NCBI RefSeq assembly: GCF_016806835.2
Contig: NZ_CP086111.1
Location: forward strand, 1,471,001 to 1,535,000
Reading direction: 5' to 3'
Source: Skermanella rosea
Lineage (GTDB): Bacteria; Pseudomonadota; Alphaproteobacteria; Azospirillales; Azospirillaceae
Length of the DNA: 64,000 nucleotides
In this document: piece by piece, positions 8,233 to 48,368 of the stretch
Numbering within the stretch: position 1 is the stretch's first letter
Layout of the letters: each line of letters opens with the position of its first letter
Made by a program: the position numbers and the translations under genes
The notes under the pieces: model-generated
What the model saw: only the letters and a program-made list of their open reading frames with translations
What the model was told of the DNA's origin: nothing
Database searches by the model: none

Positions 8233-8520
8233 TTATGATGAGCTGGCTTCGGGCCTTTGAAGGACCGGCAGGCTCTCCGGTGGCACGAGCAGCCTGATGC
8301 TGCGGGCGGCACCGGGGGTGCGCTGGATGAGGCCGGTGCGTTCGAGGGCGAGGACCATCTGGTGGATGGTGGGCGGGGTGACGCCGAAGAAGCGCTGCAG
8401 GTCGGCCTCGGCGGGCGGTCGGGCATTGATGCAGGTGTAGGCGTGGATGAACGCCAAATACTGCCCTTGCTTGGGCGTGAAATTCGGTTCCGGGTGGGGC
8501 TGTGACATCGCGGCGGCCAT
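8233..8520 (-). CDS. Winged-helix DNA-binding protein carried by the IS630 element
   Basis: 95 residues (91 if the second Met at 8508 is used). The central segment FTPKQGQYLAFIHAYTCINA, FFGVTPPTIHQMVLALERTG and LIQRTPGAARSIRLLVPPE has the layout of the LexA/MarR-like winged helix: a helix, a recognition helix, then a wing. There is no protease domain. It is transcribed away from the transposase, with starts only about 40 bases apart, so it may autoregulate the shared promoter region and hence transposition. This role is inference from position and fold. Confidence 0.65.
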   Translation of the reverse strand: MAAAMSQPHPEPNFTPKQGQYLAFIHAYTCINARPPAEADLQRFFGVTPPTIHQMVLALERTGLIQRTPGAARSIRLLVPPESLPVLQRPEASSS

Positions 8521-8555
8521 CGGGTTGTCGGGGCTTTGAGCGTCGAGGAGGCCCG

Positions 8556-9689
8556 ATGACTGTACGCTACCGCGTGGATCTGAGCGAAGCCGAGCGGACC
8601 GAGCTGCAGGCCCTGGTCAGCGGGGGTCGGCAAGCCGTGCGCAAGGTCAAGCGGGCGCAGATCCTGCTGGCGGCCGACGCGGGCCACGGCGACGAGGCGA
8701 TCGCCGCCACCCTGGCGGTCGGCACGGCCACGGTGCACCGGACCCGGCGCCGCTTCGTCGCGGGCAACCTGGACGCCGCGCTGGGCGAACGGCCGCGGCC
8801 GGGGGCGCCGCGCAAGCTGTCGGGCAAGGAGGAGGCCCTGCTGGTGGCGACCGCCTGTTCCGAGCCGCCCGAGGGCCGGGCGCGCTGGACGCTCGACCTG
8901 CTGGCGGGAGCGCTGGTCGCGTTGACCGGGCACGACGCCGTGTCCGGCGAGACGGTCCGGCGGCGGCTGGCCGAGAACGACCTGAAGCCGTGGCGCCGGG
9001 ACATGTGGTGCATCCCGCGCGTCGACGCCGAGTACGTCGCGCGCATGGAGGACGTGCTCGACCTCTACGCCGAGGCGCCCGACCCGGCGCGCCCGGTGGT
9101 GTGCTTCGACGAGAGCCCGACCCAGCTGATCGGCGAGGCGCGCGAGCCGGTCCCGGCCGCGCCGGGGCAGCCGGAGCGGTTCGATTATGAGTACCGGCGC
9201 AACGGCACCGCCAACCTGTTCGTGTTCCTCGACGCGCACCGCCCCTGGCGCGCGGTCAAGGTCACCGACCGGCGCACGGGGCGCGACTTCGCCGCGTGCA
9301 TGCGCGACCTGGTCGACGTCCACTACCCCGAGGCCGAGCGGATCCGCGTGGTGCTGGACAATTTGTCAACCCATTCGGCCGGGGCGCTCTACGAGGCGTT
9401 CCCGGCGTGCGAGGCGCGCCGGGTGCTGCGCCGGCTGGACTTCCACTTCGTGCCCAAGCACGCGAGTTGGCTGAACATGGTCGAGATCGAGATCGGCGTG
9501 CTGCGCTCCCAGTGCCTGGACCGCCGCATCGCCGAGCGCGAGCGCCTCGAGGCCGAGGTGGCAGCCTGGCAGCGCCGGCGCAACGCCGAGGGCGCCCGCA
9601 TTACCTGGATGTTCACCACCGAGCGGGCGCGTGAGAAGATGGGCCATGCCTATCCCGATCCGGAGCCCTCCCTCAAGCAAGCCGCCTGA
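8556..9689 (+). CDS. IS630-family transposase
   Basis: 377 residues from ATG 8556; an upstream in-frame extension to 8502 is unlikely because it enters the divergent promoter region. It has an N-terminal helix-turn-helix (IAATLAVGTATVHRTRRRF, GRPG-like GERPRPGAPRKLS), then the DDE triad: D in VVCFDES, D in VVLDNLSTHSA, and E in WLNMVEIEIG. All catalytic residues are present and no lesion is seen. It inserts at TA, matching the flanking TA copies. Confidence 0.92.
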   Translation: MTVRYRVDLSEAERTELQALVSGGRQAVRKVKRAQILLAADAGHGDEAIAATLAVGTATVHRTRRRFVAGNLDAALGERPRPGAPRKLSGKEEALLVATACSEPPEGRARWTLDLLAGALVALTGHDAVSGETVRRRLAENDLKPWRRDMWCIPRVDAEYVARMEDVLDLYAEAPDPARPVVCFDESPTQLIGEAREPVPAAPGQPERFDYEYRRNGTANLFVFLDAHRPWRAVKVTDRRTGRDFAACMRDLVDVHYPEAERIRVVLDNLSTHSAGALYEAFPACEARRVLRRLDFHFVPKHASWLNMVEIEIGVLRSQCLDRRIAERERLEAEVAAWQRRRNAEGARITWMFTTERAREKMGHAYPDPEPSLKQAA

Positions 9690-11357: not shown

Positions 11358-11396
11358 TTGACCTCCTTCCGCGTCTAGTGTGTTCTTGTTTTGTTC
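11358..11396 (+). promoter_or_regulatory. LexA (SOS) box and promoter of imuB-dnaE2
   Basis: GTTC (11382-11385), 7 bases, GTTC (11393-11396) is an exact match to the alphaproteobacterial LexA operator GTTC-N7-GTTC. A candidate -35 TTGACC (11358-11363) is about 17 bases from a -10 region overlapping the box, so bound LexA would block RNA polymerase. It lies 50 bases before imuB, the expected place for DNA-damage control of this operon. Confidence 0.85.
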
Positions 11397-11445: not shown

Positions 11446-12975
11446 ATGGCGCGGCGGGTTCTCTCCCTATGGCTTCCCGGCCTGGCAACCGACCGGCTGG
11501 CCCGCCGCAAGCCGGAATTGCGGGATCGGCCGCTCGTCACCATCCTCGGGGACCACGGGCGGATGATCGTCGCGGCGGTCAACGGGCATGCCGAGTCGGC
11601 CGGCATCCAGCCGGGCATGACGCTGGCCGACGCCCGCGCGCTGGAACCCTCCGTCCATCCCGTCGATGCCGATCCCGCCGCCGACGCCCAGGCGCTGGAC
11701 GGGCTGGCGGACTGGTGCGGGCGCTATACGCCCTGGGTCGGGCTGGACGCGCCGGACGGCATCTTCCTCGACATATCGGGCTGCGCGCACCTGTTCGGCG
11801 GCGAGCCGGCGCTGCTCCGCGACGTGGTCGGCCGGCTGAAAGGGTTCGGCTATCAGGCCGGGGCGGCGGTCGCCGATTCGGCGGGGGCCGCCTGGGCGGT
11901 GGCGCGGCACGGCGGGGAGCGGATCGTTGCCGTGCCGCCGGGACGCGGGCGGCAGGCGCTGGCCGGGCTGCCGGTGGAAGCGCTGCGCCTGCCGGCCGAG
12001 ACGGCGGCCGGGCTGCGCCGGGTCGGCATGCGGCGGGTCGGCGACCTCTACGGCATGCCGCGCGCCGCGATCACCGCGCGATTCGGCGTGGTCGTCACCC
12101 GGCGGCTCGACCTCGCGCTCGGCGTGTCGCCGGAGCCGATCTCGCCGCGCCGGCCGGTCCCGCCCCACGTCGCGCGCGCCGCCTTCGCCGAGCCCATCTC
12201 CACGCCGGAGAACTTGGCGGACGCCACCCGGCGCCTGCTGGACGACCTGTGCGCCGGGCTGGAGCGGGCGGGCAGGGGAGCCCGGCGGCTGGAGCTCCGC
12301 TTCTTCCGGGTGGACGGGCGGGTCGAGCGCTCCACCGTCGGGACCAGCCGGCCGGTGCGGGCTCCCGCCCATCTGGCCCGCCTGTTCGCCGAAAAGCTGG
12401 ACCGGGTGGCGCCCGGCCCCGGCATCGAGATCATGATCCTTTCCGCCACCGCAGAACCGCTCGGCCCGGAGCAGATCGAGATGCCGGTCGGCGACTCCCG
12501 GCCTGCCTCTGCTGCCTCCGGGGAGGTCGCGGATCTGGTGGATCGGCTGGGCAGCCGCCTGGGCCTGTCGCGGGTCCGGCGCCTGCTGCCGCGCGAGAGC
12601 TGGTGGCCGGAGAACGCTGTCGAGCCGGCCCCCGCGCTGTCCGGCCCGTCCCCCGGATCGAAGGATGCCGCTGCCCCCTGGCCGGCGGACCGCGCCCGCC
12701 CGCTCCGCCTGCTGCCCCGGCCCGAGGCGATCGACGTGATCGCCCCCGTCCCGGACGACCCGCCCCTGGCGTTCCGCTGGCGGGACGGGATGCACAAGGT
12801 CGTCCATGCCGAGGGGCCGGAGCGGCTGGAGCCGGAATGGTGGCGCCAGCTCGACGAACTGCGCGACTATTACCGGGTCGAGGATGCGGACGGCCAACGC
12901 TTCTGGGTCTACCGCGCCGGCCTGTACCAGCCGGGCCGGGCGGCGCGCTGGTATCTCCACGGGTTCTTTCCATGA
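11446..12975 (+). CDS. imuB: ImuB, Y-family polymerase-like mutagenesis protein
   Basis: 509 residues beginning [20 protein letters not shown]. It follows the Y-family polymerase order but lacks the DxD metal site: the first strand is LWLPGL and the palm carries [16 protein letters not shown], the ImuB signature. A finger/thumb-like domain ([20 protein letters not shown]) and a long C-terminal half follow. ImuB is thought to be a non-catalytic adaptor linking DnaE2 to the beta clamp during error-prone lesion bypass. It overlaps dnaE2 as ATGA, and a LexA box lies upstream. The usual first gene of the cassette, imuA, is absent here. GGAG upstream of ATG 11446 supports the start. Confidence 0.9.
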
Positions 12976-15900
12976 CCCCGGTTTCCCGGCCCAGCCCTGC
13001 GGCGGTCTATGCCGAGCTCCAGGTCTCGACCAATTTCAGCTTCCTGCGCGGCGCCTCCCACGCGGAGGAGCTGGCGACGACCGCCGCGGCGCTGGGCCAT
13101 TCGGCCATCGCGGTGACCGACCGCAACAGCCTTGCCGGGGTGGTGCGCGCCCATGTCGCGGCCAAGGGGGCCGGCATCCGGCTGGTGGTCGGCTGCCGGC
13201 TGGACCTCACCGACGGGCCGAGCCTGCTCTGCCTGCCGACCGACCGCGCCGCCTATGGCAGGCTGTCGCGGCTGCTCACCGCCGGGCGGCTGCGGGCGCC
13301 CAAGGGGCAGTGCCACCTGACCCGGGCCGACCTGCACGACCATGCCGAGGGGCAGGTCCTGATCGCCCTGGCGCCGGACCATCCCGGGCCGGATTTCGCC
13401 GACGCGCTGCGCGCCTATCGCGAGCTGTTCCGCAGGCGCCTGCACCTCGCCGCCAGCCATCTCTACCGGGGCGACGACGCGAGGCGGCTCGCCCGGCTCG
13501 CGTCGCTGGCGGCCGACGTCCGAGTGCCGCTGGTCGCCACCAACGACGTGCATTACCACGCGCCGCACCGCCGGGTGCTCCAGGACGTGCTGACCTGCAT
13601 CCGCGAGCACCGCACCGTCCACGAGGCCGGCTACCTGCTGGCGGCCAACGCCGAGCGCCACCTGAAGGCGCCGGAGGAGATGGCCCGCCTGTTCCGCCGT
13701 CATCCCGACGCCGTCGCCCGCACGGTCGAGATCGCGGAGGCCTGCACCTTCTCCCTGGACGAGCTGCGCTACGAATATCCCGACGAGATCACCACCGGGG
13801 GCCGCACCCCCCAGCAGGAGCTGGCCCGCCTGACGGAGATCGGCGCCGCCGAGCGCTATCCGCCAGACCTGCATCCCGGTGGCATCCCGGCCAAGGTCCG
13901 GGCCGCCATCGACCACGAGCTGCCGCTGATCGAGCAGCTGGGCTACGCGCCCTATTTCCTGACCGTCCACGACATCGTCCGCTACGCCCGCTCGCGCGGG
14001 ATCCTGTGCCAGGGCAGGGGGTCGGCGGCCAACTCGGCGGTGTGCTACTGCCTGGGCATCACGGCGGTGGACCCGGCGCGCTCCGACCTGCTGTTCGAGC
14101 GGTTCGTCTCCGCCGCCCGCAACGAGCCGCCCGACATCGACGTGGATTTCGAGCACGAGCGGCGCGAGGAGGTGATCCAGTACATCTACGCCAAGTACGG
14201 CCGCGACCGCGCCGGCATCGCCGCCACGGTCAGCCGCTACCGGGCGCGCGGCGCGATCCGCGAGGTCGGCAAGGCGCTGGGCCTGTCGGAGGACACGGTC
14301 GCCCGGCTGGCCGGCTCGATCTGGGGCTGGGGTCGGGACGGCATCGACGAGGACCGCGCGAGGGAGCACGGGCTGGACCCGGCCGACCCGACGCTTCGCA
14401 TGGTGCTGGACCTCTCCGGCGAGCTGATCAACTTCCCCCGCCACCTGGGCCAGCATGTCGGCGGCTTCGTGATTACCCGCGGTCCCCTGTCGGAGCTGTG
14501 CCCGATCGTCAACGCCGCCATGCCCGACCGCACCACGATCGAGTGGGACAAGGACGACATCGACGCCCTGGGCATCCTCAAGGTGGACGTGCTGGCGCTC
14601 GGCATGCTGACCTGCCTGCGCAAGGGCTTCGACCTGCTGCGCGACCACCGCGGCATCGACCTGGCGCTTGCCACCGTCCCGGCCGAGGATCCCGACGTGT
14701 ACGAGATGCTGTGCAAGGCCGACAGCCTGGGGGTGTTCCAGGTGGAGAGCCGGGCGCAGATGTCCATGCTGCCGCGCCTCAAGCCCCGCACCTTCTACGA
14801 CCTGGTGGTCGAGGTCGCGATCGTCCGCCCCGGCCCGATCCAGGGCGACATGGTCCATCCCTATCTGCGCCGCCGCCAGGGCAAGGAGAAAGTCGAATAC
14901 CCCTCGGACGAGTTGCGCCGGGTGCTGGAGAAGACCCTGGGCGTGCCCCTGTTCCAGGAGCAGGCGATGAAGATCGCCATCGTCGCGGCGGGCTTCACCC
15001 CATCGGAGGCCGACCAGCTCCGCCGCGCCATGGCGACCTTCCGCAAGGTCGGCCTCATCCACACCTTCGAGGCCAAGATGATCGAGGGCATGGTCGGGCG
15101 CGGCTACGACCGCGCCTTCGCCGAGCGCTGCTTCCGCCAGATCGAGGGCTTCGGCACCTATGGCTTTCCCGAGAGCCACGCCGCCAGCTTCGCGCTGCTG
15201 GTCTATGTCTCGGCCTGGATGAAGTGCCACCATCCCGACGTGTTCGCCTGCGCCCTGCTCAACAGCCAGCCCATGGGATTCTACGCCCCGGCCCAGATCG
15301 TGCGCGACGCCCGCGACCACGGGGTGACCGTGCTGGGGCCGGACGTCAACCGGTCCGACTGGGACTGCACGCTGGAGCCGGCGGGCACCGGGTATCATGC
15401 CCTGCGCCTGGGGCTCCGGCAGATCAAGAGCTTCCGGCAGGCCGACGCCGCGGCCCTGGTCGCGGCGCGGTTCGAGGCGCCGTTCCGCGATCCCCACGAT
15501 GTCCGGCGCCGCGCCCGGCTGTCGGCGCCGGCGCTGGAACTGCTCGCCCAGGCCGACGCCTGGCGGTCGCTCGGCCTGGACCGGCGGGCGGCCCTGTGGG
15601 CCGTGCAGGCGCTGGGGCCGGAGCCGCTGCCGCTGTTCGCCCGGCTCGACGGGCCGGCGGCGCCGGAGCCAGAGGTGACGCTGCCCGACATGGCGCTGGG
15701 CGAACACGTGGTCGAGGACTATGCCAGCCTGTCCCTGTCGCTGAAGTGCCACCCGCTCCACCTGTTGCGGCCGGGACTGGAACAGGCCGGCGTCGCCCCT
15801 TCGAGCCGCCTCGACGAGGCGCGGCACAACACGCGGCTGACCGTCGCCGGACTGGTGCTGGTGCGCCAGCGGCCGGGCAGCGCCGCCGGGGTGGTCTTCA

Positions 15901-16226
15901 TCACGCTGGAAGACGAGCACGGCGTCGCCAACCTGATCGTCGTGCCGCCCGTGTTCGAGCGGTTCCGCCGGATCGTCCTGACCGCCCGGCTGATCGCCGC
16001 CACCGGCCGGGTCGAGCGCCACGACGGGGTGATCCACCTGCTGGTCGACCACCTGTCCGACCAGAGCGCGCGCCTGCGCGAGCTGACCGACGGCACCGCC
16101 CCCGGTCTTGTCGACGCCCCCGGATTCGCCGGCGCCATCGCCCGCGCCGACGAGGTCAGGCGGCCCCCGCCGGAAAAGGGGCCGGAGGTGACCAGGGTCT
16201 TCCCCGACGGCCGGAATTTCCGGTGA
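12972..16226 (+). CDS. dnaE2: Error-prone DNA polymerase DnaE2 (ImuC)
   Basis: 1084 residues, normal for DnaE2. An N-terminal PHP domain ([37 protein letters not shown]) is followed by the C-family polymerase core: [21 protein letters not shown], then [20 protein letters not shown] with the catalytic aspartates, [12 protein letters not shown] and [17 protein letters not shown]. An OB-fold domain ([18 protein letters not shown]) lies near the C-terminus. It performs mutagenic translesion synthesis with ImuB. Its ATG overlaps the imuB stop (12972-12975), indicating coupling. The frame stays open far upstream across imuB, but that part has no coding similarity. Confidence 0.94.
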
Positions 16227-18193: not shown

Positions 18194-18379
18194 ATGGAAG
18201 TCGGTCAATATCCTTCGCCCCTCGGCGTCGTCGGCCTGAAAATCGGGCAGAAGAGCCAGCAGACCCAGGCCCAGGTGGTCACCCAGGCGCTGGAAAGCAC
18301 CAAGGAACTCGTCCAGAACTCGGCCCAGGCCTCGGGCGGGGCGAACGGCGGCGGCAAGCTGCTCGACATCAAGGCCTGA
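18194..18379 (+). CDS. Small hypothetical protein, possibly YjfB-like
   Basis: 61 residues starting MEVGQYPSPLGVVGLKIG, preceded by GGAG (18183-18186). A central Gln/Thr/Val-rich helix (QKSQQTQAQVVTQALESTK) and a glycine-rich linker resemble small motility-associated YjfB-type proteins, but the similarity is weak. An upstream in-frame ATG at 18158 is possible. A likely terminator follows, so the gene seems to be its own unit. Confidence 0.5.
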   Translation: MEVGQYPSPLGVVGLKIGQKSQQTQAQVVTQALESTKELVQNSAQASGGANGGGKLLDIKA

Positions 18380-41412: not shown

Positions 41413-41495
41413 TATAATTGCCGCTGCATCATGCGAAAACGCAGGAATATCCGCTGATCTCTTCCTGTTCTCGGGCGCTTCCTTGCGAATTTGCA
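41413..41495 (+). promoter_or_regulatory. Promoter and paired operators of the S24-like regulator
   Basis: A perfect TATAAT (41413-41418) with a weak CTTAAG -35 (41391-41396) lies upstream of two similar palindromes, TGCGAAAACGCA (41432-41443) and TGCGAATTTGCA (41484-41495). The same TGCG-N4-CGCA pattern occurs in pairs at two downstream promoters, so this looks like autoregulation. Confidence 0.7.
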
Positions 41496-41544
41496 TGATT
41501 GTCATCATGGTGCCGCGGTTTTTCGCAGTCGGGGAAATTGGCCA

Positions 41545-42195
41545 ATGCAGCAGATCAGGGAGTCGCTCCACCGCTGGCTTCGGTCCGTGATGGAGGAGCG
41601 GGGCTGGACGGCTGCCACCTGGGCCAAGCGCGCCGACGTGACCGCGACCAACCTGACCCGCTTCCTCAAGGACCCCGAGGGGGCCAGCCTGCCCAGCGCC
41701 GAGACCATCGGACGGCTCGCCTTCGCCGCCGGGTCGGAGCCGCGCTTCCTGTCCAGCAACCAGCCCTCGACCTCCTCCTGCCGGGTCCCCGTGCTCAGCC
41801 ACGAGCAGATCCGGACCGTCATGGACCTGCCGCGCGCCGGGGCGGCGGAGTACCTGGCCGATGCCCTGCGCCGGGGCGCCCCGTGCGTCCTGATGGACCG
41901 GCCGACCTCCCCCCGCGCCTTCGGGCTCCAGATCACCTCGCTGCACATGAACGCGGGCGGACTGCTGCCCCAGGACCAGATCGTGATCGAGCCGGTCGAC
42001 CATGTCCCGCCGCGCAAGGGCGACATGGTGATCACGATCGACGGCACGTCGCTGTGCGCCTACCGCTATTACCACCCCCAGCTCGTCCCGATCAGCACCG
42101 ATCCCCATTGCTGCCCGATGGTCATCGACGGCGCCGAGATGGTCGGCGTCGCGATCCTCGTGGTACGCCCCCTGAGGGTCGAACTGATGAGTTGA
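41545..42195 (+). CDS. LexA/CI-like regulator with a degenerate S24 domain
   Basis: 216 residues from ATG 41545 (GGGGAA at 41531-41536). An N-terminal helix-turn-helix of about 60 residues (ERGWTAATWAKRADVTATNL, TRFLKDPEGASLPSAETI) leads, via a linker, to a C-terminal LexA/CI-type S24 fold: FGLQITSLHMNAGGLLPQDQ, VPPRKGDMVITIDG, LCAYRYY and VGVAILVV. The serine of VxGxSM aligns with H134 and the lysine of VKR aligns with Y173, so the catalytic Ser-Lys dyad is missing. It therefore should not self-cleave, unlike LexA or phage CI. It most likely binds the TGCG-N4-CGCA palindromes in its own and the next two promoters; the effector is unknown. Confidence 0.75.
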   Translation: MQQIRESLHRWLRSVMEERGWTAATWAKRADVTATNLTRFLKDPEGASLPSAETIGRLAFAAGSEPRFLSSNQPSTSSCRVPVLSHEQIRTVMDLPRAGAAEYLADALRRGAPCVLMDRPTSPRAFGLQITSLHMNAGGLLPQDQIVIEPVDHVPPRKGDMVITIDGTSLCAYRYYHPQLVPISTDPHCCPMVIDGAEMVGVAILVVRPLRVELMS

Positions 42196-42253
42196 CCGGG
42201 CGCCGCCGGCCCCTCTGAAACCCTCCCTCGGGCCTGCAAGATTCCTCCCCGCA

Positions 42254-42268
42254 GTTCTCATTTTGTTC
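42254..42268 (+). promoter_or_regulatory. LexA (SOS) box upstream of the exonuclease operon
   Basis: GTTC (42254-42257), TCATTTT, GTTC (42265-42268) is an exact GTTC-N7-GTTC LexA operator. It is about 95 bases before the exonuclease start, next to the operator pair described separately. Confidence 0.8.
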
Positions 42269-42277
42269 TTTGTTAAA

Positions 42278-42343
42278 TGCGAAATCGCAGTTAACATTGG
42301 CGGAGCTATGCCCATATAGGGATGACTCAAATGCGAAGCTGCA
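42278..42343 (+). promoter_or_regulatory. Promoter flanked by paired palindromic operators
   Basis: TGCGAAATCGCA (42278-42289) and TGCGAAGCTGCA (42332-42343) bracket a candidate promoter, -35 TTAACA (42291-42296) and -10 TATAGG (42315-42320), 18 bases apart. A protein binding both sites would cover the polymerase site. Confidence 0.7.
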
Positions 42344-42362
42344 GCGGGTCAGGGATCGACAG

Positions 42363-43271
42363 ATGGCTTTGTCCAAGGATCAGGTAGAATTCCGGGCCCG
42401 CCGCCTGGGCTCCAGCGACGCGGTCCGCGTGATGGCGGGCCACTGGGTGGAGCTGTGGCGCGAGAAGACCGGCCGGGCCGCCCCGCCCCGGCTGGACTTC
42501 GTGCCCGCCGTCCAGATCGGGATCGCGACCGAGCCGCTGCACGCCCGCTTCTATACCTATCGCACTGGGATCGGAGCCTATCCGGCCGGCCACCGCACCC
42601 ACGTGCATCCCGACCACGACCATATCGTCGCCAACCTGGACTTCCTGACCTGGAGCGTCCCGCCGGCCGACCCGGCGATGGCCCCGGACACGATCCTGGA
42701 AGCCAAGTTCCATTCCGGCTTCAAGACCGACGAGGATCTGGCGGAACAATATTACTGGCAGATGCAGCACCAGATGATGGTGTCGGGCCTGGCCCGGTGC
42801 GTCCTCTCCGTGCTCCGCCCGTCCGGCTATTCCTTCCTGACCGTCGACCGGAACGAGGTGGACGCCGCCCTGCTGCTGGAGACCATCCAGGCCTTCTGGT
42901 GGCACGTCGAGAACGACCTGGAGCCGGCCGACCCGCTGCCGGTGGAGGCACCCGACTTCGACGACATGGGCGTGCTCGACATGTCCATGCACAACCGGTT
43001 CGTCGCGGTCGGCGACGTCCTGGTCAGCAACCACGACGGCGTCCAGGCCTACCGCGCGGCCGAGGCCGAGCTGAAGGCTCTGATGCCCGAGCGGGCCAAG
43101 GTCGCCTACGTCCCGGCCGCCGCCGAAGCCCGGGGCATCGTGATCAGCCGCTCGCGCGACGGCAGGCTGTCGATCCGCGTCGGCGAACTGCCGAGGAAGT
43201 ACCGGGCCCGGGCGCGCACATGGCTGCCGGACCACGCGCCCGACTTTCTGCCCGACCTGATGAACGACTGA
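42363..43271 (+). CDS. YqaJ-type viral exonuclease/recombinase
   Basis: 302 residues from ATG 42363 (upstream codons to 42270 lie over the operators). It starts FRARRLGSSDAVRVMAGHWV, the typical GxSD opening of YqaJ/lambda-exonuclease-family nucleases. Then IGIATEPLHARFYTYRTGIG, HPDHDHIVANLDFLTWSV (catalytic Asp region), ILEAKFHSGFK (the E-x-K motif) and EQYYWQMQHQMMVSG (the Q residue). The active-site set D, E-x-K, Q is complete. It degrades one strand of dsDNA 5'-3' for single-strand annealing; the C-terminal tail is divergent. It is first in an operon with the annealing protein and SSB. Confidence 0.82.
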   Translation: MALSKDQVEFRARRLGSSDAVRVMAGHWVELWREKTGRAAPPRLDFVPAVQIGIATEPLHARFYTYRTGIGAYPAGHRTHVHPDHDHIVANLDFLTWSVPPADPAMAPDTILEAKFHSGFKTDEDLAEQYYWQMQHQMMVSGLARCVLSVLRPSGYSFLTVDRNEVDAALLLETIQAFWWHVENDLEPADPLPVEAPDFDDMGVLDMSMHNRFVAVGDVLVSNHDGVQAYRAAEAELKALMPERAKVAYVPAAAEARGIVISRSRDGRLSIRVGELPRKYRARARTWLPDHAPDFLPDLMND

Positions 43272-43290
43272 GCGTTGGAGAAACCGTCCC

Positions 43291-44061
43291 ATGCCACGAG
43301 CAAGGAGGCCGGCCGACGGGCCGGAAACGGAGACCATGACCACCGGGATGCCGGGCGACACCATCGTGCGCGACAACCTTGAATTCTGGAACGCGCTGAA
43401 GCGCACGGACCCCAAGGCGACCAAGCCGTTCCAGCGCGCCGGCGGCTTCCGCGGCACCCAGATCGACCCGGCCTGGCGGCTCCAGATGATGACCGAGGTG
43501 TTCGGCCCGGTCGGCAAGGGCTGGGGCTACGAGCAGCTGGAATGGACCATCGCCGAGCGCATGGTCTTCATCTGCTGCCGCGTCTGGTACGTCGATCCGG
43601 AGACCGGCGAGAAGCATTTCACCGGCCCGCAATGGGGCGGCACCGAGATGGTCCGGCGCAACCGCGACGGCACCGAGCGCCCGGACGACGAGTGCTTCAA
43701 GATGTCGATGACCGACGCCATCGGCAAATGCATGCTCCAGATCGGCCTGGCCGCCGACATCTATCTCGGCCAGTTCGACGACAGCAAGTACCGCGAGGAG
43801 TCCGAGACAATCTACGCCGTCAAGGCCAACCCCGACCTGCAGCCCGCCGGGATCGCCAAGCTGGAGGCGGAGATCCGGGACAAGCTGGCGGAGGTCGAGG
43901 ACCTGGAAGCCCTGGACGACCTGTGGCGCAGCGGGATCAACGCCCGCATCCGCGAGATCGGCGCGGTCGACAAGGCGGCGCAGAACCGCATGATCACCTG
44001 CTTCTCGCAGAAGAAGAACGAAATCCTGAAACGAGAGGAGAGCGACCGCGAGGCGGCCTGA
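43291..44061 (+). CDS. Putative Rad52/Sak-like single-strand annealing protein
   Basis: 256 residues. The conserved core reads TKPFQRAGGFRGTQIDPAW, TEVFGPVGKGWGYEQLEW and CFKMSMTDAIGKCMLQIG, AADIYLGQFDDSKY. I recognise this as the pattern of a group of phage-encoded Rad52-superfamily/Sak-like recombination proteins, but it is not a textbook family. Between exonuclease and SSB an annealase (Red-beta/RecT equivalent) is expected, which strengthens the call. The C-terminal 80 residues are helical (LEAEIRDKLAEVEDLEALDD). Two possible starts: 43291 or 43336. Confidence 0.6.
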   Translation: MPRARRPADGPETETMTTGMPGDTIVRDNLEFWNALKRTDPKATKPFQRAGGFRGTQIDPAWRLQMMTEVFGPVGKGWGYEQLEWTIAERMVFICCRVWYVDPETGEKHFTGPQWGGTEMVRRNRDGTERPDDECFKMSMTDAIGKCMLQIGLAADIYLGQFDDSKYREESETIYAVKANPDLQPAGIAKLEAEIRDKLAEVEDLEALDDLWRSGINARIREIGAVDKAAQNRMITCFSQKKNEILKREESDREAA

Positions 44062-44093
44062 GGCAGCACTCCCGGTCCCCGAAGAGGCAAGCC

Positions 44094-44495
44094 ATGTACC
44101 AACGTTTCATCGCCGTCGGCCGCCTGGGCCGCGATCCCGAGATCACCACGACGGCCGGCGGCGCCCGCATGGCGAGCTTCAGCCTGGCTACCAGCGAAGT
44201 CGCCAAGGGCGAGGAGCGGGCGGAGTGGCACCGCTGCGTCGTCTGGGACGAGAAGCTGGTCGACGTGATCGCCCGGCGTGCCCGCAAGGGCACCCTGGTG
44301 GCCCTGGAAGGCCAGGTCCGGACCCGCCGCTGGAACAGCAAGGACGGCCGCGAGAACCACACGACGGAGGTCGTGCTGGACCGCTTCACCAGCCGGTTCC
44401 AGATCCTGTCCGGCGCCAAGCCGCAGGACGACGTGGTCGAAGCGAACCAGCCGGTTTTCGACAAGAGATTCGCCTTCGACGAGCTGCCATTTTGA
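44094..44495 (+). CDS. ssb: Single-stranded DNA-binding protein (SSB), phage-like
   Basis: 133 residues, shorter than the housekeeping SSB. OB-fold signature: MYQRFIAVGRLGRDPEITTT, MASFSLATSE, EWHRCVVWDEKLVDVIARRA, GTLVALEGQVRTRRW. It ends FDKRFAFDELPF, the acidic-tip motif (DELPF) that recruits RecO, PriA, Exo I and other partners. Its position after the annealase completes a nuclease-annealase-SSB module. Start 44094 is set by the OB-fold; GAAGAGGC precedes it. Confidence 0.88.
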   Translation: MYQRFIAVGRLGRDPEITTTAGGARMASFSLATSEVAKGEERAEWHRCVVWDEKLVDVIARRARKGTLVALEGQVRTRRWNSKDGRENHTTEVVLDRFTSRFQILSGAKPQDDVVEANQPVFDKRFAFDELPF

Positions 44496-44499
44496 TGAC

Positions 44500-44554
44500 T
44501 GCGATATCGCAATTTTCGGCGGCGACACCATCTATAATCGGCTGCGCAAGCGCA
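44500..44554 (+). promoter_or_regulatory. Promoter flanked by paired operators, small-gene operon
   Basis: Perfect palindromes TGCGATATCGCA (44500-44511) and TGCGCAAGCGCA (44543-44554) bracket a perfect TATAAT (44533-44538). This is the third promoter of the window with the same site pair. The -35 is not clear. Confidence 0.75.
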
Positions 44555-44594: not shown

Positions 44595-44933
44595 ATGACG
44601 ATGATAGCTTCTTCCAACAAGATCGACTCCACCCCCGGCGAGCTGTTCCGCTCCCCCAGCGGGCTGCTGACCCGCACCGCCTGGGAAGACGAACTGGAAA
44701 GCACGTTCGACCAGATGCCGCGCTGGTACCGTTCCGCGGCGGAGCGAGACCGCCGGTTCGCCCGCTGGGTCCATGCGGAGGCCAAGGGCCTCGCCTGCCA
44801 TCTCGACCGCCTGCTGCGCCCGGACACCAAGCCCGCGCTGGCGCGCCATCTCAGGGCGGTCTCCGAAGCCCTGTGGGCCGACGCCGAATGGGCGCGCCAC
44901 CGGATCGACGGCAGCCTGGACGAGGCGGCGTAA
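44595..44933 (+). CDS. Hypothetical protein of the operator-controlled operon
   Basis: 112 residues from ATG 44595, MTMIASSNKIDSTPGELFRS. The rest is helical and rich in Arg, Trp, Ala (WEDELESTFDQMPRWYRSA, HLDRLLRPDTKPALARHLR, SLDEAA end). No known domain. It is the first gene after a promoter with two regulator operators, so its expression is likely tied to the recombination genes. It may be a DNA-binding or adaptor protein; no evidence for either. Confidence 0.55.
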   Translation: MTMIASSNKIDSTPGELFRSPSGLLTRTAWEDELESTFDQMPRWYRSAAERDRRFARWVHAEAKGLACHLDRLLRPDTKPALARHLRAVSEALWADAEWARHRIDGSLDEAA

Positions 44934-44952: not shown

Positions 44953-45258
44953 ATGACCATAGAGCAATTGCAGAAGCGCCTACGCGAGGCCCACGCCCGC
45001 ATCGGTTTCGAGGGCCGCTTCGCCTTCACCATCGGACAGCAGGCCGCCGATGGCTGCTATATCACGCACTGGTTCCGGCCGACGCCCTACGCCTTCGAGG
45101 ACTGCAGGTCGGTCGGGGCCGGCACGGTCGCTGACTGCATCGCGGCGCTGGACCGCTACGTCGCGGATTATCCCAGGCCCATGACCAACGAGGAAGTCGG
45201 CATGACCCTGGGTATCATCCCGCCCCACGAGGAGCGTTACAAGGTCGCGGCGGAATGA
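44953..45258 (+). CDS. Hypothetical protein
   Basis: 101 residues from ATG 44953, chosen because AAGGAAG (44939-44945) is correctly spaced; ATG 44935 (overlapping the preceding stop) is an alternative. It starts MTIEQLQKRLREAHARIGFE, with later SVGAGTVADCIAALDRYVAD. Small alpha/beta protein, no recognised family, second gene of the same operon. Its last codons overlap a convergent gene. Confidence 0.55.
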   Translation: MTIEQLQKRLREAHARIGFEGRFAFTIGQQAADGCYITHWFRPTPYAFEDCRSVGAGTVADCIAALDRYVADYPRPMTNEEVGMTLGIIPPHEERYKVAAE

Positions 45259-45703: not shown

Positions 45704-45732
45704 TGTCAGAACAAAGCATGAACTTGTAAGCT
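45704..45732 (+). promoter_or_regulatory. LexA box between divergent genes, upstream of the recD2 operon
   Basis: GAAC (45709-45712), 7 bases, GAAC (45720-45723) is an exact GTTC-N7-GTTC LexA box on the minus strand. It falls between a candidate -35 TTGTCA (45704-45709) and a -10-like region (45725-45732) for the rightward gene, so LexA should repress it. Confidence 0.75.
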
Positions 45733-45770: not shown

Positions 45771-46103
45771 ATGGCAGTTTCAAAGAACCGTGCATCGGAC
45801 ACAGTGACCGCCCGAGTGGAGCACGCCCTCAACCTGACGCGGGGCCGCCTGAAGCTTTGGCTGGTCTTCGAGGATGACGCCGCCGTGGCGGAGGCCCGCT
45901 CCCTGATACAGCTCAAGAAGGCCCGCAACCTGCTGGCGCTCTCCCGCTCCGACCTGGAGCACCGCCACGAGAAGGCGGTCCGCCAAATCCTGGAACGCTA
46001 CGCCGGCCACACGCCCCCTCCGGTCGAAACGGCGGAGGAACCGAAGCCGGCTCCCCGCCGCCGTGCCGCCTCCCGGCAGCCCGCCGAAGCGGTTTCCGGA
46101 TAG
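45771..46103 (+). CDS. Hypothetical protein upstream of RecD2
   Basis: 110 residues from ATG 45771 (AGGA at 45763-45766). N-terminal half is helical (TARVEHALNLTRGRLKLWLV, SLIQLKKARNLLALSRSDLE); the C-terminal 30 residues are a basic, proline-rich tail (PKPAPRRRAASRQPAEAV) suitable for DNA contact. No recognised family. It sits 30 bases before recD2 under a LexA box, so probably an accessory of the helicase. Confidence 0.55.
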   Translation: MAVSKNRASDTVTARVEHALNLTRGRLKLWLVFEDDAAVAEARSLIQLKKARNLLALSRSDLEHRHEKAVRQILERYAGHTPPPVETAEEPKPAPRRRAASRQPAEAVSG

Positions 46104-46133: not shown

Positions 46134-48368
46134 GTGGCAATGACAGCGGTCCAGCACAGGGTGGAACAGCCCAACAGGCCGGCGTCGCCCGCGCCGGACC
46201 GGGAAGTCCTTGCCGGTCTGGTCGAGCGGGTGACCTTCCACAATGCGGAGAACGGCTTCTGCGTTCTCCGCATCAAGGCGCGCGGCCATCGCGACCTGAT
46301 CACCGTCGTCGGCCATGCCGCCTCGATCTCGGCGGGCGAATTCGTCCAGGCCAGCGGCGCTTGGCACAACGACCGCACCCACGGCCTCCAGTTCAAGGCC
46401 GGGTTCCTGCGCACGACCATGCCGACCACCGTTGAAGGGATCGAGAAATATCTCGGCTCCGGCATGATCCGCGGCATCGGGCCGGTCTATGCCAAGAAGC
46501 TGGTGCGGGCCTTCGGCGCGGACGTGTTCGACGTGATCGAGCAGCAGGCCGACCGGCTGCGCGAGGTGGCCGGGATCGGGCCGGTGCGGGCCAAGCGGAT
46601 CATCGCCGGCTGGGCCGACCAGAAGGTGATCCGCGAGATCATGCTGTTCCTGCATTCCCACGGCGTCGGCACCTCGCGGTCGGTCCGCATCTTCAAGACC
46701 TACGGACCCGACGCGATCCAGCTCATCTCGGAGAATCCCTACCGCCTCGCCCGCGACATCCGCGGCATCGGCTTCGTCACGGCGGATGCCATCGCGGCCC
46801 GCCTCGGCATCGAGAAGACCGCCATGGTCAGGGCGCGGGCCGGCATCGCCTATGCCCTGGCGGAGGCCATGGACGAGGGGCATTGCGGCCTGCCGCGTGG
46901 CGACCTGCTGGCGCTCGCGGAAAAGCTGCTCGACATCCCATCGCCGCTGATCGAGGAAGCCATCGACCTCGAGCTGGCGGACGGCACCGTGGTGGCCGAC
47001 CGGCTCGACGGGGCGGAGGCCGTGTTCCTGGCGGGCCTCTACCGCTCCGAACGCAACATCGCCACCCGCCTGCTGGGCCTCGCCGCGGGCCGGCCGCCGT
47101 GGGGCGCCATCGACGCCGCCACCGCGATTCCCTGGGTCGAGCAGCGCACTGGCCTGACCCTGGCCGAGAGCCAGCGAGCCGCTGTCCGGCTCGCGGTCTC
47201 GTCCAAGCTTCTGGTCGTCACCGGCGGCCCCGGGGTCGGCAAGACCACGCTGGTCAACTCGATCCTGAAGATCCTGGCGGTCAAGGGCCTCGCCATAGCG
47301 CTCGCCGCCCCCACCGGCCGGGCGGCCAAGCGCCTGTCCGAGAGCACAGGGATGGAGGCCAAGACCATCCATCGCCTGCTGGAGACCGATCCCGCCGCCG
47401 GCGGCTTCAAGCGGACCGAAACGAATCCGCTGGAGTGCGAGCTGCTGGTGGTGGACGAGACCTCCATGGTCGACGTGCCCCTGATGAACGCCCTGCTGCG
47501 CGCCGTGCCCAACGGCGCCGCCGTGCTGCTGGTCGGAGACGTCGACCAGCTTCCCTCCGTGGGGCCGGGGCAGGTGCTGGCCGACGTGATCAATTCCGGC
47601 GCCGTGCCGGTGGTCCGGCTGACCGAGGTGTTCCGCCAAGCCGCCGAGAGCCGGATCATCGTCAACGCCCACCGGGTGAACAAGGGCCTGATGCCGGAGC
47701 CCTACGCCGGCGAGGGCCTGACCGATTTCTACTTCGTGGATGCCGCCGACCCGAAGGACGGGGTGCGCAAGGTGCTCCACATGGTCAAGCACCGAATCCC
47801 CGACCGCTTCGGCCTCGACCCCGTGCGCGACATCCAGGTGCTGTGCCCGATGAACCGGGGCGGGCTGGGCGCCCGATCGCTCAATATCGAGCTTCAGAAG
47901 GTGCTGAACCCCCCGCGCGATCCCCGCGTCGAACGGTTCGGCTGGACCTTCTGCGAGGGCGACAAGGTGATGCAGATCGAGAACGACTACGACAAGGAGG
48001 TCTATAACGGCGACCTCGGCGTGGTCGCCCGCATCGATCCCGACGACAATTCCCTGCTGATCGAGTTCGACGGCCGCGAGGTCGCGTATGACGCCGGCGA
48101 GCTGGACCAGGTGGTCCTGGCCTACGCCACCACGATCCACAAGTCCCAGGGGTCGGAGTACCCGGCGGTGATCCTGCCGGTCACCACCCAGCACTACGCG
48201 ATGCTCCAGCGCAACCTGGTCTATACGGGCATCACGCGCGGCAAGCGCCTGGTCGTCGTCGTCGGCCAGCGCAAGGCCATGGCTATCGCCGTCAAGGGCC
48301 AGCAGAGCCGCCGCCGCTGGTCGAAGCTGCGGGACTGGCTGGGCGGCGGAGCGGGTAACGCGCCGTAG
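46134..48368 (+). CDS. recD2: RecD2-type ATP-dependent DNA helicase
   Basis: 744 residues. N-terminal OB-like domain (LVERVTFHNAENGFCVLRIK), then helix-hairpin-helix segments typical of RecD2 (YLGSGMIRGIGPVYAKKLVR, LREVAGIGPVRAKRIIAGW). The SF1 helicase core has Walker A GGPGVGKTT at about 365-373, motif Ia LAAPTGRAAKRLSE, Walker B VVDETSMVD, DVDQLPSVGPG, LTEVFRQA and C-terminal YATTIHKSQGSEYPAVIL. This unaccompanied RecD2 type unwinds DNA 5'-3' independently of RecBC. The start is GTG 46134 with TGAGGA eight bases upstream; ATG 46140 is an alternative. The upstream LexA box suggests damage induction. Confidence 0.9.
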   Translation: MAMTAVQHRVEQPNRPASPAPDREVLAGLVERVTFHNAENGFCVLRIKARGHRDLITVVGHAASISAGEFVQASGAWHNDRTHGLQFKAGFLRTTMPTTVEGIEKYLGSGMIRGIGPVYAKKLVRAFGADVFDVIEQQADRLREVAGIGPVRAKRIIAGWADQKVIREIMLFLHSHGVGTSRSVRIFKTYGPDAIQLISENPYRLARDIRGIGFVTADAIAARLGIEKTAMVRARAGIAYALAEAMDEGHCGLPRGDLLALAEKLLDIPSPLIEEAIDLELADGTVVADRLDGAEAVFLAGLYRSERNIATRLLGLAAGRPPWGAIDAATAIPWVEQRTGLTLAESQRAAVRLAVSSKLLVVTGGPGVGKTTLVNSILKILAVKGLAIALAAPTGRAAKRLSESTGMEAKTIHRLLETDPAAGGFKRTETNPLECELLVVDETSMVDVPLMNALLRAVPNGAAVLLVGDVDQLPSVGPGQVLADVINSGAVPVVRLTEVFRQAAESRIIVNAHRVNKGLMPEPYAGEGLTDFYFVDAADPKDGVRKVLHMVKHRIPDRFGLDPVRDIQVLCPMNRGGLGARSLNIELQKVLNPPRDPRVERFGWTFCEGDKVMQIENDYDKEVYNGDLGVVARIDPDDNSLLIEFDGREVAYDAGELDQVVLAYATTIHKSQGSEYPAVILPVTTQHYAMLQRNLVYTGITRGKRLVVVVGQRKAMAIAVKGQQSRRRWSKLRDWLGGGAGNAP

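Follow-up and report, generated by a model that had tools for sequence, protein, structure and literature searches.

A LexA/CI-like regulator lacking the catalytic lysine as a probable second lock on an SOS-inducible recombination operon with paired operators in Skermanella and relatives

Introduction

The window analyzed here, a stretch of 64,000 bp from Skermanella rosea (family Azospirillaceae; positions 1,471,001 to 1,535,000 of a 6.10-Mb contig in a genome of 7.76 Mb), contains three promoters that each carry two palindromic sites of the type TGCG-N4-CGCA. The first promoter precedes the gene of a putative helix-turn-helix (HTH) regulator, here called REG, the second a gene for a YqaJ/RecE-type recombination exonuclease (EXO), and the third a group of small genes (small-gene promoter). 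Which protein binds these operator pairs, and what might it control? An initial annotation of the sequence had regarded the repeated paired layout as non-random and had assigned the sites to the neighboring regulator, which was thought to be a cooperative or looping repressor. We have followed the sites, the regulator, and the adjacent module, which includes EXO, a probable Rad52-fold annealing protein (ANN), and the small proteins sm1 and sm2, through the genomes of the family. In the reading that we favor, with a probability of roughly 0.75, REG is a non-cleavable protein of the LexA/CI type that acts as a second, probably cooperative lock on an SOS-inducible recombination operon.

Results

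Operator pairs in the S. rosea genome

All six sites were found at the expected coordinates, two each at the REG, EXO, and small-gene promoters (Table 1), and the start-to-start distances within the pairs are 52, 54, and 43 bp, respectively. The palindrome TGCG-N4-CGCA is exact in four of the sites, but in those starting at 41484 and 42332 one half-site is altered to TGCA. Describing the two EXO sites as bracketing their promoter was imprecise: the predicted -35/-10 spacer contains the first of them, and the second follows the predicted transcriptional start by about 30 bp.

Single sites are not enriched: the window contains six exact matches versus 3.5 expected, a number reached by 12 of 100 shuffled sequences, and a search of the whole genome with TGCGAANNYGCA gave 12 rows compared to 11 for the reversed pattern. 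Enrichment of single sites was thus rejected as evidence. The pair pattern TGCGNNNNYGCA-N26-56-TGCGNNNNYGCA, on the other hand, occurs at only three places in the 7.76 Mb, which are precisely these three promoters (three forward rows and one reverse row, the latter representing one of the same places; the reversed-pattern control gave one forward and one reverse row). The distinctive feature is thus the pairing, and the genome scan revealed no further regulon member with the pair pattern. An isolated perfect site at G000:C1:2626849 has no obvious DNA-repair gene adjoining it, as judged by eye from frames of at least 110 amino acids.

Conservation of the pairs together with REG

REG was searched in 82 genomes of the family, which also constituted the order-level sample, and was present as one full copy each in 47 of them, with an additional partial match in G067. 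ANN was found in 48 of the 82 genomes, and in 46 of these together with REG; G066 has REG without ANN, and G054 and G055 have ANN without REG. The module genes were placed by tblastn at the loci of the 47 REG-bearing genomes, at an unlinked EXO locus of Azospirillum halopraeferens (G018), and at the two REG-less ANN loci. Conservation is given as counts of genomes or loci without tree-based correction for kinship.

For the EXO promoter, we scored the best pair of sites within 260 bp upstream of EXO, requiring at least 14 of 16 matching positions and a spacing of 32-72 bp. Such a pair was present at 46 of 48 loci, i.e., at all 46 loci of REG-bearing genomes and at neither of the two from genomes without REG. 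The spacing was 54 bp in 28 cases, 53 bp in 13, and 52 bp in five. The same score was reached by 1.0% of 1920 shuffled sequences and by 37 of 1646 real stretches of non-module sequence in these loci. Upstream of REG, a site deviating from the motif at no more than one position was located within 125 bp in 44 of the 47 genomes, and in G045 at position -131. The identical single-site test was positive for ANN and sm2 in only 2 of 48 cases each and for RecD2, a helicase encoded farther downstream, in 0 of 10. A REG promoter pair at 52-53 bp was found in 11 of the 47 genomes, including five Skermanella. The 43-bp pair of the small-gene promoter is restricted to Skermanella (5/5); in Azospirillum, the small genes directly follow ANN.

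In A. halopraeferens, REG (L040) and EXO-ANN-sm1-sm2 (L135) are located on separate contigs, each more than 45 kb from the nearer contig end. Both unlinked loci have retained their pairs, with spacings of 52 and 53 bp, and the EXO operon has also kept a LexA box (see below). The conservation of the sites, the uniqueness of the pairs in the S. rosea genome, the co-occurrence of REG with the module, and the pair at this unlinked operon agree with the earlier assignment of the sites to the neighboring regulator, and REG as the predicted binder of the operator pairs is strongly supported.

LexA box and geometry of the EXO promoter

Just ahead of operator 1 of the EXO promoter, we identified a LexA box of the form GTTC-N7-GTTC, which the initial annotation had not mentioned. 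This is the LexA motif known from alphaproteobacteria, and an excerpt of PMC12700426 gives it for Caulobacter. As a control, the motif was found upstream of both recA genes, lexA, and imuB-dnaE2 of S. rosea. The two recA genes are full-length (G000:C1:483342 and G000:C3:464683), and a LexA box precedes each of them. Within the window the motif occurs four times versus 1.33 times expected, a number reached by 4 of 100 shuffles; three of the boxes precede imuB-dnaE2, EXO, and sm4-recD2, and the fourth is located at 18305-18319 (minus strand). The imuB-dnaE2 box (11382-11396) lies before two genes at 11446-16226 to which we give this name, one for a Y-family polymerase (IMS, 3.8e-13) and the other for an error-prone DNA polymerase (PRK05672, above cut-off), and serves as an internal control for the SOS motif.

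The distance between the starts of the LexA box and of operator 1 is 23 bp (39 cases) or 24 bp (five cases) in 44 of the 46 EXO promoters (first base A or G), G067 and G001 having no LexA box at that position. An exact box within 300 bp upstream of EXO was present in 44 of 48 loci, the exceptions being G027, G067, G054, and G055. When all 82 genomes were scanned for the composite of LexA box and operator, it was found at the EXO or ANN promoter of 44 of the 47 REG-bearing genomes and at the module in 0 of the 35 REG-less ones. Two of these genomes, G001 (Arenibaculum) and G067 (Aerophototrophica), have ANN apart from EXO, and there the composite is located before ANN.

The EXO promoters of Azospirillum mostly consist of TTGAAA or TTGAAT, a 17-bp spacer filled by operator 1, and CATATT, with the LexA box abutting the -35 region. 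The equivalent elements predicted by comparison in the window are TTTGTT, 17 bp, and TAACAT. With this arrangement, a dimer bound at operator 1 should exclude RNA polymerase. With operator 1 placed between -35 and -10 and the LexA box immediately adjacent, LexA and REG would each lock the same SOS-inducible operon.

The REG promoter itself contains GTTC-N7-GTTC in 19 of 47 genomes. In 18 of these, the box is located 54-74 bp before REG; they make up the Azospirillum group including A. brasilense, by which we mean the genomes sharing this REG LexA box rather than a group defined by a tree. The 19th box (G066) lies elsewhere and is doubtful. None was found in the REG promoters of the five Skermanella, S. 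rosea included.

Assuming 10.5 bp per turn, the spacings of 52-54 bp correspond to about 5.0-5.1 helical turns and that of 43 bp to about 4.1. As these values are near whole turns, the dimers of a pair would lie on one face of the DNA. The better-conserved half-sites of the EXO promoters face each other (TTCGCA in operator 1, TGCGAA in operator 2), an orientation that might suit a symmetric bridge. Cooperation by looping is suggested only by the spacing; taken together with the LexA/CI-like fold of REG described below, the spacing makes the proposed cooperative or looping repressor plausible.

REG resembles LexA and CI without the catalytic lysine

An HTH_31 match was obtained for all 21 REG members analyzed (E-values up to 1, best 9.3e-06), and the AlphaFold model built from 21 sequences shows four N-terminal helices (mean predicted local distance difference test score, pLDDT, 86.3; predicted template modeling score, pTM, 0.60). 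In Foldseek searches with the model, the best matches were LexA, and fragments of lambda repressor and a lambda-186 hybrid were among the first 20. Profile comparisons gave weak matches to LexA and UmuD (E 0.07-0.16), and Pfam Peptidase_S24 was matched by only one of the 21 members (E 0.015). In the profile alignment to LexA and UmuD, the catalytic serine corresponds to REG position 134, which is occupied by Ser in 37, His in nine, and Thr in one of the 47 proteins. The catalytic lysine aligns near positions 171-173, and no lysine is present at positions 163-179 in any of the 47. According to the model, REG is thus like LexA and CI in fold, and one defining feature of the self-cleaving members is absent. 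Because the catalytic lysine is absent, RecA-stimulated self-cleavage should not remove REG.

Near the place of the LexA lysine, Cys171 is invariant in all 47 proteins, as is Cys189 in the 21 aligned ones; a redox role of these residues is possible.

REG had no match in 50,697 phage records and one partial match (L117) among viral contigs. In 385 genomes of the class, with at most eight candidates per genome scored, full-length matches were restricted to two sampled Skermanella, and 14 further genomes had partial matches (best E 2.6e-14). The module was also found in L086, labeled 'Rhodospirillaceae bacterium'.

Observations that weigh against the proposed role and alternative explanations

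Several observations weigh against the reading of REG as a cooperative second lock. With respect to the protein, the HTH_31 match of REG from the window (7.9e-4) is below the Pfam cut-off, and the TM-scores to LexA are low when normalized by the query (0.28-0.35), reaching up to 0.69 by the target for single C-domains. With respect to the REG promoters, G024 and G052 lack a clear site. A score of at least 14/16 was attained by 31 of the 47 promoters, 20 of them with a spacing of 48 bp (11 cases) or other spacings, and 16 remained below the score. We regard REG promoter pairs at spacings other than 52-53 bp as doubtful and have excluded them from the support. Most Azospirillum REG promoters retain one clear site rather than two.

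These strong single sites would be in line with REG occupying two sites independently, the second site merely adding occupancy without cooperation or looping. Such independent binding is difficult to reconcile with the EXO promoters, where both sites and the 52-54 bp spacing are retained in 46 of 46 cases although the sequence of the spacer differs among lineages, and with the other spacing, 43 bp, which is likewise near whole turns. We therefore consider it rather unlikely. Part of the conservation of the spacing is, however, owed to common descent. The position of the single site in Azospirillum, at about -90 to -131, could also suit activation of the REG gene. CI-type proteins can activate, and if REG were an activator, or had a dual function as CI has at its own promoter, SOS induction would need REG. 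At EXO, however, operator 1 falls inside a predicted promoter spacer of the normal 17 bp, where a dimer should block RNA polymerase, and a role of REG as activator appears improbable.

Further points of this kind concern specificity. Outside S. rosea, the pair pattern alone is not specific: among the matches listed, a similar pattern was present in 67 of the 82 family genomes (reversed control, 13/82), comprising all 47 REG-bearing and 20 of the 35 REG-less genomes. The scan of relatives thus confirmed the pair before EXO in every REG-bearing genome that has EXO, but it also gave similar pairs elsewhere in the family. The composite of LexA box and operator occurred outside the module in 10 genomes, four with REG (G011, G033, G037, G041) and six without (G054, G068, G070, G071, G073, G074), compared to two matches in the 82 genomes for the reversed control. 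The two REG-less ANN loci lack the LexA box as well; because their whole promoter differs, they are weak evidence for a specific co-loss of operators and regulator. Similarly, the absence of the composite from the module of REG-less genomes says little because 33 of these 35 genomes have no ANN at all. The matches in REG-less genomes, together with the chance level of single sites in the S. rosea genome, might indicate that a different, global regulator uses the sites and that REG is just a neighbor. Against this speak the restriction of the pairs to the module in S. rosea, the pair that accompanies the unlinked operon of A. halopraeferens, and the co-occurrence of REG and the module in 46 genomes, and we consider this explanation very improbable.

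Two side observations relate to these scans. Five REG-less genomes of one genus (G068, G070, G071, G073, G074) contain a similar arrangement of GTTC-N7-GTTC followed by a TGC-type sequence. In G041, four TGCGACGTCGCA palindromes are clustered within about 220 bp (C74:17101-17316) on a contig different from that of the module.

The recombination operon and its neighborhood

The features of the locus are listed in Table 1. The first 15 Foldseek matches of the ANN model were all RAD52 (best E 2.8e-5). As the confidence of this model is low (pLDDT 63.7) and ANN has no Pfam match, we regard ANN only as a probable Rad52-fold annealing protein. For sm1 and sm2, no match was obtained in Pfam, PHROG, NCBIfam, or PADLOC at E 0.1. 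The RecD2 gene is a neighbor of REG or of the module in the five Skermanella and in G001, G066, G067, G054, and G055. Alanine C-termini are retained by three operon proteins that are unrelated to one another: ANN with AA in 47 of 48 cases, sm2 with AAE in 48 of 48, and sm1 with AA in 39 of 47. Such C-termini resemble ClpXP-type degrons, and the products of ANN, sm1, and sm2 may be short-lived owing to them.

Phage origin of the module is likely. ANN relatives occur in 171 of the 50,697 phage records, and a viral contig found through ANN (L118) carries relatives of REG, EXO, ANN, and SSB with 36, 44, 74, and 50% identity; no TGCG operator pair was found there. These relatives would also fit a decaying prophage remnant, with sites left over from phage immunity. 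The reading frames of REG and ANN are open, however, and the operator layout has been retained in 46 genomes of five genera with differing gene orders of the module. In A. ramasamyi, where the annotation lists an HTH regulator, a YqaJ recombinase, and three hypothetical proteins on a replicon of 0.92 Mb that is listed among the plasmids, no named phage structural gene is present in 10.6 kb around the module. Decay is therefore not likely, and the remnant explanation has very little probability.

A function as a defense system was rejected: PADLOC gave helicase-model matches for RecD2, and REG and EXO were matched only at the level of noise (E 0.02-0.04). Elsewhere in the S. rosea genome, a 100-kb contig carries a distant second ANN relative (L139; G000:C5:19979-20413) together with an SSB, with no TGCG pairs nearby. 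At 8302-8481 of the window (minus strand) lies a LexA_DNA_bind-like match in a frame of 127 amino acids with four equal-scoring copies in the genome, here next to a DDE-type transposase gene at 8502-9689; together these are probably an insertion element.

Table 1. Features of the REG-EXO locus (coordinates refer to the window).
Feature	Position	Strand	Remarks
Predicted -10 TATAAT, REG promoter	41413..41418	+	from sequence; hexamer varies among other Skermanella
Operator 1, REG promoter, TGCGAAAACGCA	41432..41443	+	pair retained in 5 Skermanella
Operator 2, REG promoter, TGCGAATTTGCA	41484..41495	+	52 bp from operator 1
REG, Cro/CI-like HTH and LexA/CI-type C-terminal fold (model)	41545..42195	+	catalytic Lys absent
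LexA (SOS) box GTTCTCATTTTGTTC, EXO promoter	42254..42268	+	same motif precedes recA (2), lexA, imuB-dnaE2 in the genome
Predicted -35 TTTGTT, EXO promoter	42269..42274	+	by comparison with Azospirillum TTGAAA/TTGAAT-N17-CATATT
Operator 1, EXO promoter, TGCGAAATCGCA	42278..42289	+	within predicted -35/-10 spacer
Predicted -10 TAACAT, EXO promoter	42292..42297	+	by comparison with Azospirillum
Operator 2, EXO promoter, TGCGAAGCTGCA	42332..42343	+	54 bp from operator 1
EXO, YqaJ/RecE-type recombination exonuclease	42363..43271	+	Pfam YqaJ 1.4e-14; phrog_434 (RecE-like phage family) 9.2e-33
ANN, probable Rad52-fold single-strand annealing protein	43291..44061	+	ends with -AA; phrog_7838 4.2e-45, family labeled exonuclease
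SSB, single-strand DNA-binding protein	44094..44495	+	Pfam SSB 2.3e-25; in module in 5/5 Skermanella
Operator 1, small-gene promoter, TGCGATATCGCA	44500..44511	+	
Predicted -10 TATAAT, small-gene promoter	44533..44538	+	from sequence
Operator 2, small-gene promoter, TGCGCAAGCGCA	44543..44554	+	43 bp from operator 1; spacing 43 in 5/5 Skermanella
sm1, conserved small protein	44595..44933	+	conserved
sm2, conserved small protein	44953..45258	+	ends with AAE in 48/48
LexA box GTTCATGCTTTGTTC before sm4-recD2	45709..45723	-	present in 5/5 Skermanella
sm4, small protein upstream of recD2	45771..46103	+	
RecD2 helicase	46134..48368	+	TIGR01448 3.4e-264

Discussion

We propose that a REG dimer binds sites resembling TGCG-N4-CGCA and that two such dimers, on sites 52-54 bp apart and in Skermanella also 43 bp apart, would bind cooperatively, probably via joined C-terminal domains with the intervening DNA looped out. 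The operon under the control of LexA and REG would represent a host-adopted pathway of the lambda Red type, composed of a RecE/YqaJ exonuclease, a probable Rad52-type annealase, conserved small proteins, and in Skermanella also SSB, with RecD2 encoded nearby in the latter genus. As self-cleavage is implausible without the catalytic lysine, REG would not itself be a sensor of DNA damage; rather, it might set the basal level or the threshold of expression and switch the operon back off. In the Azospirillum group including A. brasilense, where the REG gene has its own LexA box, the SOS response could raise both the operon and its repressor, resulting in a pulse of expression. Combining these ideas, one may speculate that a phage Rad52/RecE pathway has become a branch of SOS repair that is double-locked by LexA and by non-cleaving REG via five-turn loops, and that gives an incoherent feed-forward pulse after DNA breaks where REG is LexA-controlled, the degradable -AA/-AAE C-termini helping to end it. 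This full scheme is tentative, and we would not call it the expected outcome.

The locus lends itself to sharp tests of how two probable repressors share an SOS promoter in a fixed geometry, and it offers operator pairs that occur naturally at nearly integral helical spacing. It also represents a phage recombination system that Skermanella and Azospirillum have apparently converted to a function of the host, and it might have a bearing on annealing-based genome editing in Azospirillum. A limited literature search, which is no proof of absence, did not retrieve a description of a REG-gated module. No article on Skermanella with YqaJ was found, none on annealing proteins naming Azospirillum was among the matches listed, and the excerpts of SOS and non-cleavable S24 literature among the matches listed contained no description of REG.

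Among known systems, lambda CI and LexA share with REG the combination of an HTH with a LexA/CI-like C-terminal fold (in the model for REG), palindromic operators, and sites before their own gene. REG differs from them by the lack of the catalytic lysine in 47 of 47 proteins, by its location beside a chromosomal recombination operon, and by sites 52-54 bp apart, whereas the lambda operators are adjacent. In the 1986 lambda work the sites were reportedly moved apart artificially; the layout of the REG sites, in contrast, is natural and conserved. According to an excerpt of PMC4217526, which cites Hochschild and Ptashne (1986), this work dealt with lambda repressor at sites that lie an integral number of turns apart, and the near-whole-turn spacing of the REG sites similarly suggests cooperation. 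A precedent for a short in-phase loop formed by an HTH regulator is Rco of pLS20, for which an excerpt of PMC4207663 describes two operators, a short loop of 75 bp, and loss of regulation by a 5-bp insertion. In that excerpt, Rco has another motif arrangement and controls conjugation genes, and no LexA box is mentioned. The EXO promoter shares the LexA box GTTCN7GTTC with the alphaproteobacterial SOS regulon, for which the excerpt of PMC12700426 gives the Caulobacter motif, but differs from it by the site of a second regulator at a fixed start-to-start distance of 23-24 bp. Finally, the module resembles lambda Red and RecET in the juxtaposition of a RecE/YqaJ exonuclease and a probable Rad52-fold annealing protein, accompanied in Skermanella by SSB; unlike these, it is located on bacterial chromosomes or large replicons, is conserved within a bacterial family, and features a LexA box as well as a regulator of its own.

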